64,000 nt of DNA, from the NCBI GenBank assembly GCA_022925895.1, contig JAKSYS010000012.1:1-64000 (forward strand). The letters run 5' to 3'. Of the stretch, positions 4,300 to 33,849 are shown one piece after another (positions within the stretch are counted from its first letter, which is position 1; every line of letters begins with the position of its first letter). The DNA is from Fragilaria crotonensis (lineage: Eukaryota; Bacillariophyta; Fragilariophyceae; Fragilariales; Fragilariaceae). Below the pieces are notes generated by a model. It saw nothing but the letters and a program-made list of their open reading frames with translations, did not search any database and had not been told where the DNA came from. A program made the position numbers and the translations under genes.

Positions 4300-7200
4300 T
4301 CAATATCCTCGCGAACCCCGGACAAAGGACGAGGATGGATTAATGTCATAGCCTCGCCTCTTTGCAGCAGGGCGTTCGCCACCATCAAACGGACGCTTGC
4401 CAGCAACTGACGAATCACGTTGCTCATTTTGGAAGTTTGGCATGCTTCGTTCGTCCTGACTTGGATATTCGCCTATCTCCCGTTGAGCAACGTTTGCGTT
4501 GTTGGTGGCGTAGTTCCTATGTCCTCCATTACGGTTGGCATCCCAACCACTTCCGTTCGAGGGCGCTTGACTGCGTCGCCGTTCCGAGTAAAAATCATTC
4601 GGCTGGCCGTCCCATCGCTCCACGTCGTTTCTCGGATTCGTTTCGTTTCCTCGTCCTCCATAGCCGTCAACACCATGACTTTGATGTCGCCAATCATTTC
4701 CATCCTCATGTTTTGTATGCTGCATGTTTTGCATACCGCCTTCGCGGTGACCAGAGTTACGCGGCTCTTCTTGTCTTCGGTACACGCCTCTGTGTTGGCT
4801 TCCGCTTCTCCTTTCAGCCTTAAAGCCGAGATTTGTTTCGTTTAGTGCTTGTGAAACGTGAGAACGGTCCATCGCTGGCTGTTCGGGGTGCTCGTGAGAA
4901 CGAATGCGCCGCTCGTATTGATTCTGATACGCATTTTGTTCGCTTTTTGTGTCGCTGTGGAAATTTGCGTTTTCTTCATATTGAGCAGCGCCATTTGCTC
5001 GTTCCCAGCGTCGAGAAGGAAAAATTTCGGAACGATTGTCGGGGTAAGCATCATGAGAGTAACAGATTTCCTGATCTTCTTGAATAACTTGGCGTTCCCC
5101 GATGTTAAACGTATTGCCGGATCTACGGTCTTTACCTGGATAATGATTTGAGTTGCGAGCCTGGGTTTGATCTTGTTGTTGCCACTCACGATGAGCGCCT
5201 ACATTGTGATCGTATGAGTCTTCGTGGTTGTGGCGATGACTCAACCCGTGGTGCCAATCCTTAGCGCTTTGACCATCGTACTCGGCGCCTTGCGAGTTGC
5301 CATGGCTTCCACGATTGAGACTGTGATTACTTGACTGACGCTCGTTCTCTCCATGATTCGACTGCCCCTTCTGTGCGGTGTTTCGATCGCTGCCGTGGCT
5401 GCCATAACCGTCGAACTTGCCACGATGCTGGTTACTGCCATTGTTGACACCACGTCGACCATGTCTGTCACCGTAGCTGTTCGCCGCTGGCACACTGTGA
5501 AATCTATTGTGCGAAGTCGAGTCATGATTTGGCGTGACTGGCCCTCGGTGGGCGTGGCTGCTTTCCCGACGAGGGTTGTCGAAGCTTCGTCGACGATCGT
5601 GGCCGTCAAGTTGATTAACTGGCGTGCGTCGATCCACCTGAATGGGGAGGGGGCCTGAATAACGAGGACGAACGTGCTGGATCACGTCCGGCGTATGATT
5701 TGCAGTTGTATTCTGCTCCTTGAACTTATTGTACCCTTCATGGTCGAACAAAATTTTCCCACCGTTCTTCTGAACCTCTCGAATGAGGGCCTCCTTGTCG
5801 ATATGAATCCTGCCTTTGTTCGGCTGGTCGATTTCCACGATTCCCATGAACTCCAGCATGGCGCGAACTCGTTTTCTCATTCCATCATCCCCATGTCGGA
5901 CGCCGCGCATTCTCGTTTTGCCATAACCTGTGACAATATCAATCGACGTGACTGCGGCAAGCTTCGACGTATTAACTAAATATGGCACCAGACATTCTTC
6001 AAACCACCATCCTAGAGCTATTTCGCCTCCACCAAGCGAGAGGAAATGCAAGTCAAGCTCTAGCCACTGTGTGCCCAATCTCGAAACTCGCGCATAGAAA
6101 CCTTTCTCAATTCCCAGCTCAAATAAACGACGACCAAGTTGTACCTGTGAGCTGACTGCATCGAGCACTGCGTTAAAGGAGACAACGTCGTGAATCACAC
6201 CAACCGTCTCCATTTCTTCAAAGAGCTCCAGCCCCTTGTTCCAGAGATTGCATCGCGCGCAGGCAGATATGGCAGAGTTGAAGATGTGAACATTCGGTGC
6301 AACGCCCTCCATTTTCATACGATCCATAAGCTGAAAGGCAATATCGGCTCGACAACACTTTTCCATACACGACATCGCAGCGCCAAAGATGATGACATTT
6401 TTCTTGATCCTAAAATGGGCGAACGGTGAGCACCAACTAGTGTGCAATGCGTTCAGCACATGCAAGTACCTACCCCAATTCAGTCATCTCGTCAAGGTAC
6501 TCCAGGCATTGGCGGTACTGGAGCCCCTTTTAAGCCGAAATTGCCGAGCCGTAGCTGACTACAGTGATCGGCAGTCGTTTTGCTTTCATCTCGTCAAATA
6601 GATCCAAAGCCCTCTCCCATTGAAGGCCTTTTCTAGAGCTGTCATCGTTGCGTTGTAGGTAACAATGCTTGGCGTGTTTCCGGATCTTTCAATTTCACGG
6701 AAAAGTTCTAAAGCCTTCTCCCACATTTGTCCTTTCGACAAGGCAGAAATTGCAGCAGAGTAAGCAATAACATTGGCCCCATGTCCTGAAGCTTTCATTT
6801 CATCCAGCACTTCCAGAGCAAGCTTCCACTGCTGGCCTTTTTCCGCTGCACTAATCAATGCGGAGTAGGTAACAACTGTTGGAACCACCCCTTCGCTCTT
6901 CATCTGTTCAAACAGTTCAAGTGCCTTGTGAGGCACGAGACCCTTTTCACAGGCGCTAATTGCAGCGTTGTACGCAATTGCAGTTCGGCCTATTCCTTCA
7001 CGCTTCATGCGATCCAGTAAATCAAGTGCGACCCGCCACTGACCTGCCTTTTCACACGCCGAGATGGCCGAGGAAAATCTGAAGGTAAAGGTTAGTCCGT
7101 CGTCTAATGGAGACGAGCTGAAAATTTCCAGCACTTACGTGACTTCATTCTTCTGGATACCTCTGCGATCCATTTCTTCCAGTAGGCGCAGCGCTCGGTG

Positions 7201-27847: not shown

Positions 27848-27852
27848 ACCAT

Positions 27853-28151
27853 TGTTGATGATAAGGAGCGTACTGGCACTGATGACGGTGTTTCTACGGA
27901 AGAAGACAACAGTACGGATATCGTTTTACTAAATGAATTACCGAGCGAGACGTGGGTAGACGTCGTAAAGAAAGTAAGGCTCGGAGCGCGAGTAAGAAAG
28001 AGATGTGTTTCGAGAGATCATTCTCTCGAAACAATCCAATAGTAGAAGACTAGTTACATTGACTTTCTTCCTCTCCCGTTGTAGCGCCCATCGCATCAAG
28101 GTTACCATAGGTTCAACGCCTACGGGGTGCGGAGTAGCGAACAATCTAACA
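27853..28151 (+). repeat. 5' LTR of the copia element
   Basis: 299 bp, TG...CA termini, nearly identical to 33547-33844. It contains a perfect 12-bp-arm hairpin at 28006-28033. Confidence 0.95.
28006..28033. promoter_or_regulatory. Perfect LTR hairpin (12-bp arms, 4-nt loop)
   Basis: TGTTTCGAGAGA and TCTCTCGAAACA flank the loop TCAT. The same hairpin is present in the 3' LTR at 33699-33726, so it is conserved between the two copies. The right arm plus the next bases (28022-28034) is the exact complement of the sequence immediately after the LTR. Confidence 0.85.
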
Positions 28152-28164
28152 TTGTTTCGAGAGA
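28152..28164 (+). promoter_or_regulatory. Putative primer-binding site, complementary to the element's own LTR
   Basis: The 13 bases TTGTTTCGAGAGA directly abut the 5' LTR, where a reverse-transcription primer must anneal. They do not begin with the usual TGG of a tRNA 3'-end complement. They are a perfect complement of LTR bases 28022-28034 (TCTCTCGAAACAA). Including LTR base 28151 the match is 14 nt. This is the arrangement expected for self-priming. Confidence 0.55.
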
Positions 28165-28199
28165 AATTAGCCAAGAAATCGACTCGATATTAAGTATTT

Positions 28200-28609
28200 A
28201 TGGACGAAGAAGAGGAACGAGATCTCATCAACGAACTTGAAGCCTTGAACCTCCGCACCGCTGAAATCATCGAGCAATTGGCAGCGAGGGACGTCGGTAA
28301 GCAGAATCGCAGGGGAGCAACGAAAACTCACCACGAGGTACGCGCCGTACCCGTCACGTCGGTATCCGCTACCGGGAACCCAACCAACCCGTCCGTCAAC
28401 GGGCTGAGGAAAGGGACCGCGTCGGATCAAGAACAAGGTTATCAAACCCGCGACCTGGCCCGTCGAGAGGCCCTGGATTAAGGAAGAGGCGCGACGAGCA
28501 ACCATAACTCGAGTCACCAGGGATCAGATTCACTTCGTGACCGATAACGGAACCAGAACTTGGAGGCCCCAAACAACCTCGAACGAATCGAGTAACACGA
28601 GAAAATGAG
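28200..28609 (+). CDS. Short 5' ORF of the copia element, frame-broken
   Basis: An acidic, coiled-coil-like N-terminus ('DEEEERDLINELEALNLRTA') is followed, in a second frame, by 'IKNKVIKPATWPVERPW' and 'ATITRVTRDQIHFVTDNG', then 'RTWRPQTTSNESSN' and a stop at 28607-28609. The second part resembles the small SH3/tudor-like module that precedes gag in some diatom elements; this is inferred from its pattern only. One missing C near 28420 (CC read as C) accounts for at least one of the breaks. Confidence 0.5.
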
Positions 28610-29611
28610 TGCCTCAGTAAACACGGGAGCAGCCTCCGCTGTTAGTAGCATCACCGATGCCACCAGGACAAGCGGACGATCCACTGGAGGTCGAGGCCGC
28701 GGCGGACGGCGCAATCGCACTAGTGGCGCCGGCGGCACCAGTCGAAGCTCCACGAGTCGGAGAACCAGCACCTTCAAGGGTGCCACCGCGGACATGAATG
28801 CAAACGTCTTCGAGTGTTTTGAAGAACACGGAGACCGCCGCCAGTACGCGAGAACCGTCGAGGCGCTGGAAGGATACATGAAGAAAACAATGAAGTATTC
28901 GGAAGACTTGGCCCCATTGTTCGCACCGGAGATGTCCTTGCCGCGAGTCGCGTACCCAAGGGACCCGGGGCCTAACCCCAGCAAGGTGGAAGAAGCCATT
29001 TGGAACGAAGAGACGCGGGAGTATGTGAAACGTGCTCGGGCCCTCATCGGAAACCTCGCGACAGGCATGGCCGTCATCTGGGGACAGTGCAGTGAAGCAA
29101 TGAAGTCCAAAGTCAAGTCACACGGCCAGTTTGCCGAGAAATGGGCCGAGAACGACTGCGCGTGGTTACTTCACGAGATCAGAGCCGTCACACTCCAGTT
29201 TGACGAAAAGAAAAACCCATTCATCTCCCTCTTGGATGCGAGAGCGAGTTTCCTGAACTGCAAACAGGGGCAGACACAGTCTGCGGACGAATATATGGAA
29301 GAGATGAAGACGTGGATCGATAACATTGAGTATCATGGTGGGACAATCTCGGAAAGTCCCACCCTCATTGCCGATGTCGACCCCCTTGGCAACGCCCGTT
29401 CTGTTGAGGTCCGATCCGCGATGGCAAGGGACCGCACCATTGCCACCGCATTCATACGTAACGCCGACCCAACGAGATACGGGACACTTATCACGGAGCT
29501 GGCCAATCAATACGCTCGTGGAAAGGACGAGTACCCGACTGACTTAACCTCGGCATACGGTCTACTTGTGAACTACACGACCCCACAAATGCAGCGAGGG
29601 GCGAAATGAAA
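28605..29611 (+). CDS. Gag capsid-like protein of the copia element
   Basis: From ATG 28605: a Ser/Arg/Gly-rich basic N-terminus ('GRSTGGRGRGGRRNRTSG'), then a mostly helical gag domain ('CAWLLHEIRAVTLQFDEKKN', 'QSADEYMEEMKTWIDNIEYH'). It would form the virus-like particle that packages element RNA. The open frame stops at 29609. Adding one G to the run at 29598-29601 fuses it to the next frame carrying the zinc knuckle and protease, giving a gag-pol polyprotein as in other copia elements. Confidence 0.85.
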
Positions 29612-30350
29612 ACAACTGTCCAAACTCGTACTGCTCCGAACCCCGAAACCAGCGCCATGACCTTTGTGCAGCGCAACGTTGTGGCCGGCACCAACGGAGT
29701 CACCCATGAGGGCATCACGTGCTTCAATTGCAACAACATGGGACACTATTCGGTTGACTGCCCCGAGCCGAGGAGCACTGGCACGGCTACGGGAACCACG
29801 TTGACTCAAGCGGCCTATGTACTCGCCCAGGCTGGTGCCCCCGGGATCCATCCGGACTGGGTCCTGTTGGATTCCCAATCGACCGTATCGGTGTTTAAGA
29901 ATGCATCCATGCTCACGAACATCCGACGCAGCCCGAATGTACTTCGTGCTATCACCAACGGTGGTCATCAGGACTCGTGCCTACTCGGTGATTTCCCGAA
30001 CCTCGGCCCGGTGTGGTATAACAGCGACTCCATCGCCAACATCCTCTCATTGTCCGAAGTACGCAAGGTGTGTCGCGTAACGATGGACACCGGGCTGGGC
30101 TGCCATGTGCGTGCATCGCCTGGATGGGTCCGTTATGAAGTTCGTTGAGCACGACAACGGTCTGTATGTTTTTGTGCCTAATTCTAGTGCCGACGTTACT
30201 GGTTACACCCTTGTCTCCACCGTAGCCGAAAACAAGCGCATGTTTACTCAGCGCGAGATCAGGAATGCCGACCTTGCCCGCGAACTGTATCGGAAGATTG
30301 GCAGACCCAACGAGGCAGAGTTTCAGTCTATCCTCCGCGCAACCTGATTC
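29606..30350 (+). CDS. Zinc knuckle and aspartic protease region of copia pol, frame-broken
   Basis: CX2CX4HX4C knuckle at 29720-29761 ('CFNCNNMGHYSVDC') followed by a protease core with 'VLLDSQSTVSVFKN', where D-S replaces the usual D-T/S-G. The frame changes near 30110 to continue as 'VHRLDGSVMKFVEHDNGLYV' and the pre-integrase segment ('TQREIRNADLARELYRKIG'). Confidence 0.75.
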
Positions 30351-31540
30351 GGAACTGCCCCGTCACACCTGATGACGCTCGACGAGCACTGATCATCTAC
30401 GGGCCGGACATTGCCGCCCTCAAGGGAAGACGACACACGCGCCCCCGGCTCCGCGTGCTCCAACCTTTGTTGCCGTGCCCCTACCGGCACCAGTCCTCCT
30501 TCACCACCGCAACGTTACCCTTTGCGTTGACCTTTTCTTTGTCCAAGGTCTCCCTTTCTTTCACACCATATCGCGCGACATTGGGTTCCGCACCGTTGCC
30601 CCGATTACGGACCGCCGCCAACCAACTTTGTGGCGAGAGTTACAGGCCGTGCTTCGCGTTTATCGCGACCGGGGCCTTACGATCCGTGACCTTCATTGCG
30701 ATCACGAGTTCGAATGCCTACGTCCTTCGCTGCTGCCTATCGTCATGAATGTTGTCCCCACCGATAGTCACGTTGGGGAAATTGAACGCTCCATCCGCAC
30801 CATCAAGGAGCGGTTACGGGCATGTGCCCACGGCCTCCCGTTCAAACGCCTACCGCGCCTCCTCATTACCCACATGGTTGCCGACGTCGTTCGTTGTCTG
30901 AACCAATTCCCTTTCCGACACGGCGTTTCCGCCACGCTCAGCCCGACCATCGTCACAGGTATCGGCCTTCGGACTATCGCACACTTACCCTTGAATTTGG
31001 GTCCTACGTGCAAGTGTTTGAGGACAATTCGCCATCGAACACCACCCGTGCCCGGTCCCTCGGAGCCATTACGCTGACGCCCACGGGTAACGCTCAAGGC
31101 GATTACTATTTCTTGTCCCTTGCCTCTGGCGCTCTCATCTCGCGACATCAATGGACCGCGGTCCCCATGACCGACGCAACCATCGCTCGTGTCGAAGCCC
31201 TCGCCAAGCACGAAGGGCTTCCCCCCCTTCAGGCCCGCGGTCTCGTTGTTGAATGGCGGCCGGATATGCCCATCGATGACGACGAGTATGATCGCGACTA
31301 CGACAGCGACAGCGACGACGATGCAAGGGACGACCCTTTTCCCCTCGACGACTATCCTGCAGTCGATGCGGCCGAACTCGCCGACCTCCTTGCCGATGCC
31401 CCTCCGCTTCCAGATGCGGCCCTCCGCGGCTCCCCGCGTTGGTGCAAGGAGCGCCGGACGCTTACGAGGACATCGATATCGAACTCATACCTCCCGGGGA
31501 CGCCTACGATGAAAACGACGACGACATGGTGTTCGAAGAC
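30350..31540 (+). CDS. Integrase region of copia pol, frame-broken
   Basis: DDE integrase core: 'NVTLCVDLFFVQGLPFFHTI' carries the first Asp, 'GLTIRDLHCDHEFECLRPSL' the second, and 'SHVGEIERSIRTIKERLRA' the Glu. It is followed by 'LEFGSYVQVFEDNSPSNTTR', 'GDYYFLSLASGALISRHQWT' and an acidic tail. It inserts the cDNA copy. At least two frame changes (near 30350 and 30990) separate the segments. Confidence 0.8.
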
Positions 31541-33518
31541 AACGACGAACGAGAGGACGCCGACAACTTGGATGAAGACCAAGGAGCGCCACTGCAGGAC
31601 GCCGACAACTTGGATGAAGACCAGGAGCGCCACTGCAGGACGACCAATACGAACGCGAGGACGTCGACAACTTGGATGAAGACCAGGAGCGCCACCGCAG
31701 AACGATCAACCCACGGATGCAGACCAAGGAGCGCACGAGAATCAAGGAGCGAACCACGCGCACTACCAGCTCCGACCACGAAACGACAGACAAGCGAATA
31801 GTTTTCGAAGTGCCATCGACCAACCACACAGCAACCAGTCGTACTACCCGCCGGTTCAGCTTTTTCAGAACGGACACGTAAACCGACAGGTCATATTCCG
31901 CTACGTATTGGCGCAGATGTCAGCCAAGGCAGCCATCCGACAACATGGAAAAGTTGCGGAGGACGCCCTTCTGGCCGAATTTTCTCAGATGAAGGACCTC
32001 ACAGTTTACGAACCCATCGACCCAGCAACCTGACCAGGGAACAAAGCGAATGGCACTAGAGCCATCAACCTTGTACAACAGAAGCGATGCGGGCGTTTCA
32101 AGGGAAGGACTGTGGCGGACGGACGCCTACAACGGAACCTCTACGACAAATCGGAAACCGCATCGCCTACGGTAGCTACGGACGCGCTCCTCCTCACCAT
32201 CCTGATCGATGCGTACGAGCGTCGTGACGTCGGAACGGCGGACATAGTCGGGGCCTATCTTAAGGCTCAAATGGATGATTTCGTGCTAATGAAATTTACC
32301 GGTGAGTCCGTCGACATTTTGTGCAAAATGGACCCGAAATATTTGGACTTTGTAACCATGGAAGGGAACACGAAGGTTGTGTACGTTCGATTGGTGAAGG
32401 CTATATACGGATGCGTGAAGTCCGCCCTACTATGGTACAACCTGTTCAGCTCCACCTTGGAAGAAATGGGTTTCGTGTTGAACCCTTACGATCCATGCAT
32501 TGCCAATCGAACCGTTAACGGAAAACAATGTACTATTGCCTGGTACGTGGACGACACAAAGATCTCGCACGTGGACCCGGAAGTGGTTACGTCTGTTATC
32601 TCCGCCATCGAACAGCGTTTTGACAAAATGAAAGTTACCCGAGGCAGGGAGCACACGTTCCTAGGCATGAACATCAAGTACACCGACCGCGGGACTGCCA
32701 TAATTTCGATGAAGGACTACCTGTTGGAAGCGATCGATGAATCCGGATTGGAGGTCGTACACACCGCGGCTACCCCCGCGCGGAGGACTTTGTTTGAGGT
32801 AAACTCGCGAGCTACCCCTTTGAAACCGGACCGTTTTGAAACGTTCCGAAGCGTGGTCATGAAGCTACTGTACGTGGCTCTGCGCGCACGTATGGACCTC
32901 CTGCTCGCGATTTCCTTCTTATCAACGAGGATATCCAAAAGTACAGTTGAAGACGAGGGCAAGCTCAAACGGGTGCTGGAATACATCAAGGGAGCTGCAG
33001 ACCTAGAGTATGAACTCGGTGCGGACCAACTTGGCAGTTTCACGACCTGGGTGGACGCATCGTATGCGACACACCCGGACATGAAGAGTCACACCGGCGG
33101 ACTTCTTTCGTTTGGGACCGGGGCACTAATGTGCAAATCAAACAAGCAAAAACTGAACACGAGGAGTTCAACGGAGGCTGAGGTGGTCGGCGCAAGCGAT
33201 TACCTCCCGAACACCCTATGGGTACAGCTTTTTATGAAGGCACAGGGATATCCCATGCAAAAGACGTATTTCGAACAGGACAACGAGAGTGCGATAAAAT
33301 TGGAAAAGAATGGTCGCGTATCGGCCGGCCCCAAGTCCCGCCACATCGACATTCGATATTTTTGGATCAAGGATCGAATTAAGAGCGCCAACGTGGACAT
33401 TCGTCACTGCCCAACGCTACGTATGATCGCTGATTTTTTTACGAAGCCGCTCCAAGGCAACCTTTTCCGACTTTTCCGCAGCGTGATCCTCGGACATGAA
33501 CACACCAACTCCTCCTAA
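31540..33518 (+). CDS. Reverse transcriptase and RNase H of the copia element
   Basis: The main open frame is 32112-33518. RT motifs: 'DIVGAYLKAQMDDFVLMKF', 'VKAIYGCVKSALLWYNLF' and the catalytic 'IAWYVDDTKISH'. RNase H: 'WVDASYATHPDMKSHTGG', 'NTRSSTEAEVVGASDYL' and 'RHIDIRYFWIKDRI'. It ends 'MIADFFTKPLQGNLF' then a short tail. The upstream part (e.g. 'EDALLAEFSQMKDLTVYEPI', 31950-32040) connects through two one-base contractions near 32045 and 32057. Confidence 0.92.
31557..31700 (+). repeat. Tandem repeat in the acidic linker of copia pol
   Basis: Three imperfect copies of a unit encoding 'DNLDEDQGAP' lie between integrase and RT. The first two units are directly adjacent; the third is separated by a short insert. 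Run-length differences between copies throw the frame. Confidence 0.85.
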
Positions 33519-33546
33519 ACATCGCCATCGCACCGTCCGAGGAGCG

Positions 33547-33844
33547 TGTTGATGATAAGGAGCGTACTGGCACTGATGACGGTGTTTCTACGGAAGAAGA
33601 CAACAGTACGGATATCGTTTTACTAAATGAATTACCGAGCGAGACGTGGGTAGACGTCGTAAAGAAAGGTAAGGCTCAGGCGCGAGTAAGAAGAGATGTG
33701 TTTCGAGAGATCATTCTCTCGAAACAATCCAGTAGTAGAAGACTAGTTACATTGACTTTCTTCCTCTCCCGTTGTAGCGCCCATCGCATCAAGGTTACCA
33801 TAGGTTCAACGCCTACGGGGTGCGGAGTAGCGAACAATCTAACA
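33547..33844 (+). repeat. 3' LTR of the copia element
   Basis: 298 bp copy of the 5' LTR. It is preceded by a short purine stretch (GAGGAG) and followed by the second ACCAT. Confidence 0.95.
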
Positions 33845-33849
33845 ACCAT

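Follow-up and report, generated by a model that had tools for sequence, protein, structure and literature searches.

What primes minus-strand DNA synthesis in a Ty1/copia element whose primer-binding site (PBS) is complementary to its own long terminal repeat (LTR)? This question is raised by an element at positions 27853-33844, on the + strand, of a 64,000-nucleotide stretch of the genome of the diatom Fragilaria crotonensis (assembly GCA_022925895.1, contig JAKSYS010000012.1, positions 1 to 64,000 of the forward strand; hereafter the window, with all features of the element on its + strand). An earlier note on this DNA had put forward that the element may be self-primed, with the 5' end of its RNA folding back onto the PBS as in Tf1 of fission yeast. 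Based on the comparison of related elements throughout the 62.1-Mb assembly, the best explanation of the data, and in our judgement a highly probable one, is Tf1-like self-priming in a diatom Ty1/copia lineage.

Complementarity between the PBS and the LTR

The sequence TTGTTTCGAGAGA at 28152-28164, which directly follows the 5' LTR (27853-28151), was confirmed to be the exact reverse complement of LTR positions 28022-28034. The earlier note had counted 14 matching bases of 14; the complementarity is real but was understated, as it extends one base beyond 28152-28164 at each end, such that all 15 bases of 28151-28165 are complementary to 28021-28035. The PBS is thus TTGTTTCGAGAGAA (28152-28165), and its partner in the LTR, the putative self-primer arm, occupies 28021-28035, of which 28021-28034 would be a 14-nt primer and 28035 pairs with the last base of the LTR. 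In 2000 trials with a base-shuffled LTR the longest match was 10 nt (mean 5.5), versus the 15 nt observed.

Under Tf1-like self-priming, the RNA would start at 28021, the base after a TCA, and its first 14 bases would fold back onto the PBS adjoining the 5' LTR. RNase H would cut after base 14, between 28034 and 28035, and the freed 3' end would prime minus-strand DNA, as in Tf1. Plus-strand synthesis would then copy the PBS from the primer, which would keep the PBS and the RNA 5' end matched through evolution.

Covariation in the window's clade

The window 13-mer has 43 exact sites in the assembly, and 27 of these fall, by position, into nine sets consisting of an LTR arm, a PBS 130-145 bp further on, and the arm of the other LTR. 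The copy on contig C140 was the only one to align with the window LTR over its full length; the others aligned around the arm only or not at all, and four loci (L022-L025) had no match to the window LTR. Arm and PBS were also searched for separately with mismatches allowed, which gave 138 places for the arm (100 of them listed) and 75 for the PBS, and a selection of these places was fetched. In this way 86 loci, in addition to the window, were obtained by their resemblance to either the arm or the PBS. Loci were included in the window's clade if their arm and their PBS each had no more than three mismatches to those of the window, and pairing between the two was itself not a criterion. Before this count 49 of the 86 loci were dropped, leaving 38 loci in the clade. 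The dropped loci are taken to be 3' or solo LTR arms lacking a PBS, chance matches, or a PBS lacking an arm (L017 and L052); re-examination revealed no additional locus among them in which an LTR arm and a PBS match, and one unrelated 12-nt inverted match was seen in L029.

Perfect 15-nt pairing between arm and PBS was present in 32 of the 38 loci, and these carry nine different arms. Changes in the arm are accompanied by complementary changes in the PBS, for instance TTATCTCG with CGAGATAA, CTCGCG with CGCGAG, CTTGAAATAAT with ATTATTTCAAG and CTATCGCAACAAT with ATTGTTGCGATAG. Permutation of the PBSs among the 14 distinct combinations of this clade gave a minimum of 16 mismatches in 100,000 permutations versus 9 observed, and a broader permutation that included the sister elements described below (C685 and C220 being in the wrong register) gave a minimum of 70 in 100,000 versus 14 observed, figures that are not strict probabilities because loci of a clade share descent. 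The independent divergence of PBS and arm in related elements, which the earlier note had named as evidence that would count against its proposal, was not seen; the two covary in this genome.

A sister clade chosen by reverse transcriptase

Searches with the reverse transcriptase (RT) of the window's element returned one group of matches with approximately 55-80% identity over longer stretches and another with approximately 38-51%. Sister elements were picked from their RT position only, and their LTRs were located by comparing both ends. There were 27 sister places with 38-51% identity, of which 23 were fetched (all but C225, C12, C385 and C626), and two of these (C398 and C125) were untestable at contig ends, resulting in 21 sister elements with readable ends and 39-51% RT identity. 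A perfect arm of 14-16 nt was present in the element's own 5' LTR in 20 of the 21; for the remaining element, C220, the recovered 5' LTR amounted to only 32 bp, and the arm was present in the 3' LTR. The sister PBSs are unlike that of the window (e.g., AAATTAAATTAAAG, GTTTTAGTAAAGTAT and GTTAATTGAGATTGT), and with nine distinct arm/PBS pairs in each clade there are 18 in total. Between C501 and C685 there is a one-base difference in length that is common to arm and PBS, the arm of C685 being the shorter. A PBS copied from the primer would be expected to show such a matched length change, which could also arise through selection on the pairing.

In a tree of 28 RT pieces, the 19 that belong to the window and sister clades were separated from the other nine copia pieces with a support of 1.0, and the sister clade formed one group with a support of 0.88. 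Five of these nine other pieces were labelled as tRNA-type from a site of the 14-mer GGTTATGAGCCCAA upstream of them, by position only. A search for relatives in viral contigs gave 39 pattern matches, none of which was confirmed. In one sister-clade element a long open frame (L087:1457-6571) extends into the 3' LTR (6342-6693), such that coding sequence overlaps U3.

Comparison with tRNAs and with tRNA-type copia elements

For the comparison with tRNAs, 29 presumed nuclear tRNA genes at 27 loci were used together with their flanking sequence. This tRNA set is incomplete, with many isoacceptors missing: 63 of 2258 candidates from the genome-wide search were scored, and 35 matches on C880 and C881, which are presumed organellar, were left out. 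The longest exact match between 21 self-type PBS strings and the 27 tRNA loci was 9 nt and lay in a flank, and matches anchored at the primer 3' end were 7 nt or shorter for 20 of the self-type PBS strings; the PBS of C112 matched the tRNA set over 7 nt, internally. The 43 exact sites of the 13-mer are spread over the window and 31 loci, and ARAGORN identified no tRNA in any of these. A tRNA or half-tRNA complementary to the PBS, another finding that the earlier note would have held against self-priming, was absent from this incomplete set of 29 genes, as was any internal tRNA segment to which the PBS is complementary in the manner of half-tRNA priming. In the 32 window-clade and 20 sister elements with perfect pairing, the PBS matches the element's own LTR and no tRNA of that set.

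At the PBS place of four other copia elements there was no exact self-match of at least 9 nt, and three of the four (L091, L093 and L094) carry GGTTATGAGC there. As a positive control, a tRNA-iMet gene on C37 (L167) matched the PBS of both L091 and L094 at 14 of 14 bases and that of L093 at 10. The tRNA-iMet-type 14-mer GGTTATGAGCCCAA has 104 exact sites in the assembly. The fourth element, L092 (C207:79350-89300), has a PBS, GTTACTTTGCCC, that matches neither its own LTR nor the fetched tRNAs (best match 8 nt, internal). Self-type and tRNA-iMet-type copia elements are found in one diatom genome, where both modes could be compared in one host.

These data bear on the possibility that the window's element is primed by a host tRNA or half-tRNA, its match to the LTR being incidental. 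Ty1/copia elements primed by half-tRNAs are known (PMC6317226), other copia elements here have a tRNA-iMet-type PBS, and the tRNA set is incomplete. We nevertheless regard this explanation as extremely improbable: the PBSs are wholly different between the two clades and track the LTR, and the tRNA comparisons gave no exact match longer than the 9 nt in a flank, no more than 7 nt at the primer 3' end, and no ARAGORN tRNA at the 43 sites.

Predicted RNA start

In the window, TCATT at 28018-28022 fits the initiator-like motif TCAH(+1)W, which has been proposed for diatoms, with CAY(+1)A cited for FCP genes of P. tricornutum (PMC4686930, available in part). The RNA start predicted from it is 28021, the base after TCA and one base earlier than the start near 28022 that had been suggested for this element. 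The first base of the arm is the H of TCAHW in 31 of the 38 window-clade loci and in all 11 sister elements counted, a number that excludes C220 and C685. The arm is also preceded by TCA in seven of the eight sister elements that were added later, the other, C112, having TTA. This position is support for the predicted start and not proof of it, because the motif, which was initially selected by eye, is short and is present in 67.9% of the 80-base upstream sequences that its authors searched (same part of PMC4686930). The oomycete initiator YCAYTYY, in which the start is usually taken to be the A (PMC3599244, available in part), fits 33 of 49 elements, and its A is one base before the arm. Either motif, diatom or oomycete, would place the arm at the start of the RNA, which is also its position in Tf1.

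Folding and the U3/R hairpin

When the RNA was begun one base before the arm, the mean pair probability of arm and PBS was 0.95 for 31 distinct window-clade sequences and 0.93 for 10 sister sequences. When it was begun 39 bases further upstream the values were 0.43 and 0.79, respectively, and the drop to 0.43 in the window clade is ascribed mainly to a hairpin. This perfect 12-bp hairpin, reported by the earlier note and found in both LTRs, lies at the presumed U3/R border at 28006-28033, with 28006-28017 pairing with 28022-28033 and TCAT (28018-28021) as the loop. Its counterpart in the 3' LTR is at 33699-33726, where the arm copy is at 33714-33728.

The hairpin covaries in the window clade. 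The hairpins of 10 families, one for each distinct arm, have a summed energy of -124.1 kcal/mol, a value that was unreached in 200,000 permutations (best permutation -124.0), and families of the L051 and L047 types have weaker hairpins. There is nothing comparable in the sister clade, for which the mean hairpin energy is -6.3 versus -14.4 kcal/mol in the window clade, and we rejected the hairpin as a generally essential part for this reason. In the window clade the hairpin may hide the arm copy of the 3' LTR; paired with U3 in this way, that copy would not compete for the PBS. In a broader model, the 5' end of the RNA serves in every cycle as the source from which the PBS is renewed, such that start, primer and PBS evolve as one unit that has undergone full turnover between the clades, and the hairpin of the window clade hides the 3' arm, leaving the RNA 5' end as the sole possible primer. 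We offer this model tentatively, as a possibility somewhat short of even chances.

The perfect 12 bp in the window family could also point to a palindromic protein-binding site or a DNA inverted repeat, of which the match to the PBS would be a by-product. This seems to us very improbable, since the hairpin sequence varies between families with its pairing kept, which a fixed protein site would not do, and the match to the PBS persists in the sister clade, where there is no comparable hairpin.

In two loci of the window clade, L036 and L040 (on C327 and C445), the 3' arm fits the PBS and the 5' arm has two adjacent mismatches to it. Both retain an intact 5' hairpin in a version of its own, and they could be recombinants between families. 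The sequence CACATTCCCTCGAAACAAT is common to the upstream regions of three similar gene-like copies (L072, L073 and L074, on C109 and C416), where it precedes a presumed start codon; it resembles the self-primer arm, and no matching PBS was found there.

Weighing self-priming against other uses of the pairing

The proposal of self-priming is supported by the covariation of arm and PBS, the lack of a match in the incomplete tRNA set, and the usual position of the arm after TCA. Also in its favour are the predicted folding of the arm onto the PBS, the contrast with the four other copia elements that have no exact self-match of at least 9 nt, and the invariant acidic residues described below. 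Several observations weigh against it. Arm and PBS have one to three mismatches in six of the 38 window-clade loci (L012, L036, L040, L044, L049 and L055), although in L012, L036 and L040 the arm of the 3' LTR still fits the PBS, suggesting that their mismatches arose by decay after insertion. A PBS with no arm is found in L017, of which 109 bp of the 5' LTR are left, and in L052. The matched elements are all from a single genome, and the members of a clade share descent; the tRNA set omits many isoacceptors as well as the 35 presumed organellar matches (C880 and C881); TCAHW is absent in seven of the 38 window-clade loci and in the sister element C112; and the RNA 5' end is a prediction from sequence.

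What the data show is pairing rather than priming, and the pairing of the RNA 5' end with the PBS might serve circularisation, packaging or translation control, with another RNA acting as the primer. Long-range folds involving the PBS region also occur in tRNA-primed elements. We consider this improbable because the pairing spans exactly the PBS, from the last base of the LTR, leaving no free site for another primer, and because its sharp boundary and the matched length change in the sister clade fit a PBS copied from the primer.

Self-priming might alternatively act in trans, the primer being the 5' end of the RNA of another copy or of a solo-LTR transcript. Cis and trans priming are indistinguishable from sequence, and arms with no nearby PBS exist in the genome; the matches are family-specific, and strong pairing is predicted within one RNA. 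Priming in trans, which we think unlikely, is a variant of Tf1-like self-priming and not a denial of it.

Relation to known systems

In Tf1 of S. pombe the PBS is bound by the first 11 bases of the RNA, and the RNase H cut falls between bases 11 and 12 (PMC7175516, available in part). The diatom lineage resembles the Tf1/sushi group of Ty3/gypsy elements in that its PBS lies at the edge of the LTR and can pair with what are presumed to be the first bases of the RNA, and in that no match was found among the tRNAs compared. It differs in its RT, which is of the Ty1/copia type (RVT_2), in having approximately 14 paired bases, with the last base of the LTR in addition, versus 11, and in the covarying U3/R hairpin of one clade; its RNA start and cleavage point are predicted.

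The earlier note knew of no accepted case of self-priming in Ty1/copia. This holds in that self-priming was not shown experimentally for copia in the literature covered, but it overlooks the plant Ty1/copia TAR lineage, for which self-priming has been predicted from sequence, with an earlier proposal cited for Houba and Osr-1 (PMC6317226). The TAR elements share the superfamily and the predicted mode of priming with the diatom lineage but have plant hosts, and covariation between families, as seen here, is not described for TAR in the available part of that paper. Ty1/copia elements primed by half-tRNA-iMet (plant Osser, Bryco and others) likewise belong to the same superfamily, and PBSs of this type also occur in this genome; they match tRNA-iMet, and the three considered here have no exact match of at least 9 nt to their own LTR. 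The fungal GalEa copia elements are like the diatom lineage in having a hairpin, the Conserved Hairpin Site, and no tRNA-type PBS. However, according to the accessible text of PMC5445492, no sequence complementary to that site was detected by its authors, whereas the diatom lineage has one.

The CoDi groups (PMC2806351) are also Ty1/copia elements of diatoms. A term search of the main text of that paper found neither "primer binding" nor "tRNA", and the single "PBS" refers to a buffer. We recognised no report of self-priming in diatom copia elements in a literature search whose coverage excluded most subscription journals and in which sources were available in part. If the explanation preferred here, Tf1-like self-priming, is true, a mode of priming shown in the Ty3/gypsy group and predicted for one plant copia lineage would reach a very different host and lineage, with 18 distinct primer/PBS pairs as the comparative evidence for it in diatoms. 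Self-priming would free the element from host tRNAs, and whether it had more than one origin among LTR elements becomes a testable question.

Structure of the window element

The window copy has a 5-bp target site duplication, ACCAT, at 27848-27852 and 33845-33849, flanking LTRs of 299 bp (5') and 298 bp (3', 33547-33844). The two LTRs are 2 substitutions and 3 one-base gaps apart. Their TG...CA ends and the 5-bp duplication are usual for Ty1/copia, though not exclusive to it. The reading frames are interrupted. An open frame of 334 aa in the gag position (28605-29609) has no Pfam match, and it is followed by one with a CCHC zinc knuckle (29606-30148) and by a frame with an RVT_2 reverse transcriptase (YVDD) and an RNase H region (32112-33518). 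A short purine-rich stretch at 33539-33546 adjoins the 3' LTR and is a possible polypurine tract. In the internal region, at 31554-31709, a 52-bp unit is present in three near copies.

The Pfam RT match in the window is of the copia type (RVT_2, 57.2 bits) and not of the Ty3/gypsy type that descent from Tf1/sushi would entail; two stop-free sister-clade frames scored 62.6 and 46 bits, against a curated cut-off of 31.6. RVT_2 lies in the last third of each of these two frames, and no match to an integrase domain was found in either. In 10 aligned sequences the acidic residues D147, D148, D315, E355, E357, D390 and D441 of the RT/RNase H frame are invariant, and these we take to belong to RNase H.

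Silicon transporters in the same assembly

In keeping with a diatom host, the assembly has 19 matches to silicon transporters (SITs), 18 of which are above the curated cut-off. At C97:29749-33762 a single open frame of 1456 aa contains three consecutive silicon-transporter matches, and a frame of 1008 aa on C771 contains two such matches, both representing fused transporter repeats. Fused SIT genes occur in Synedra-type diatoms.
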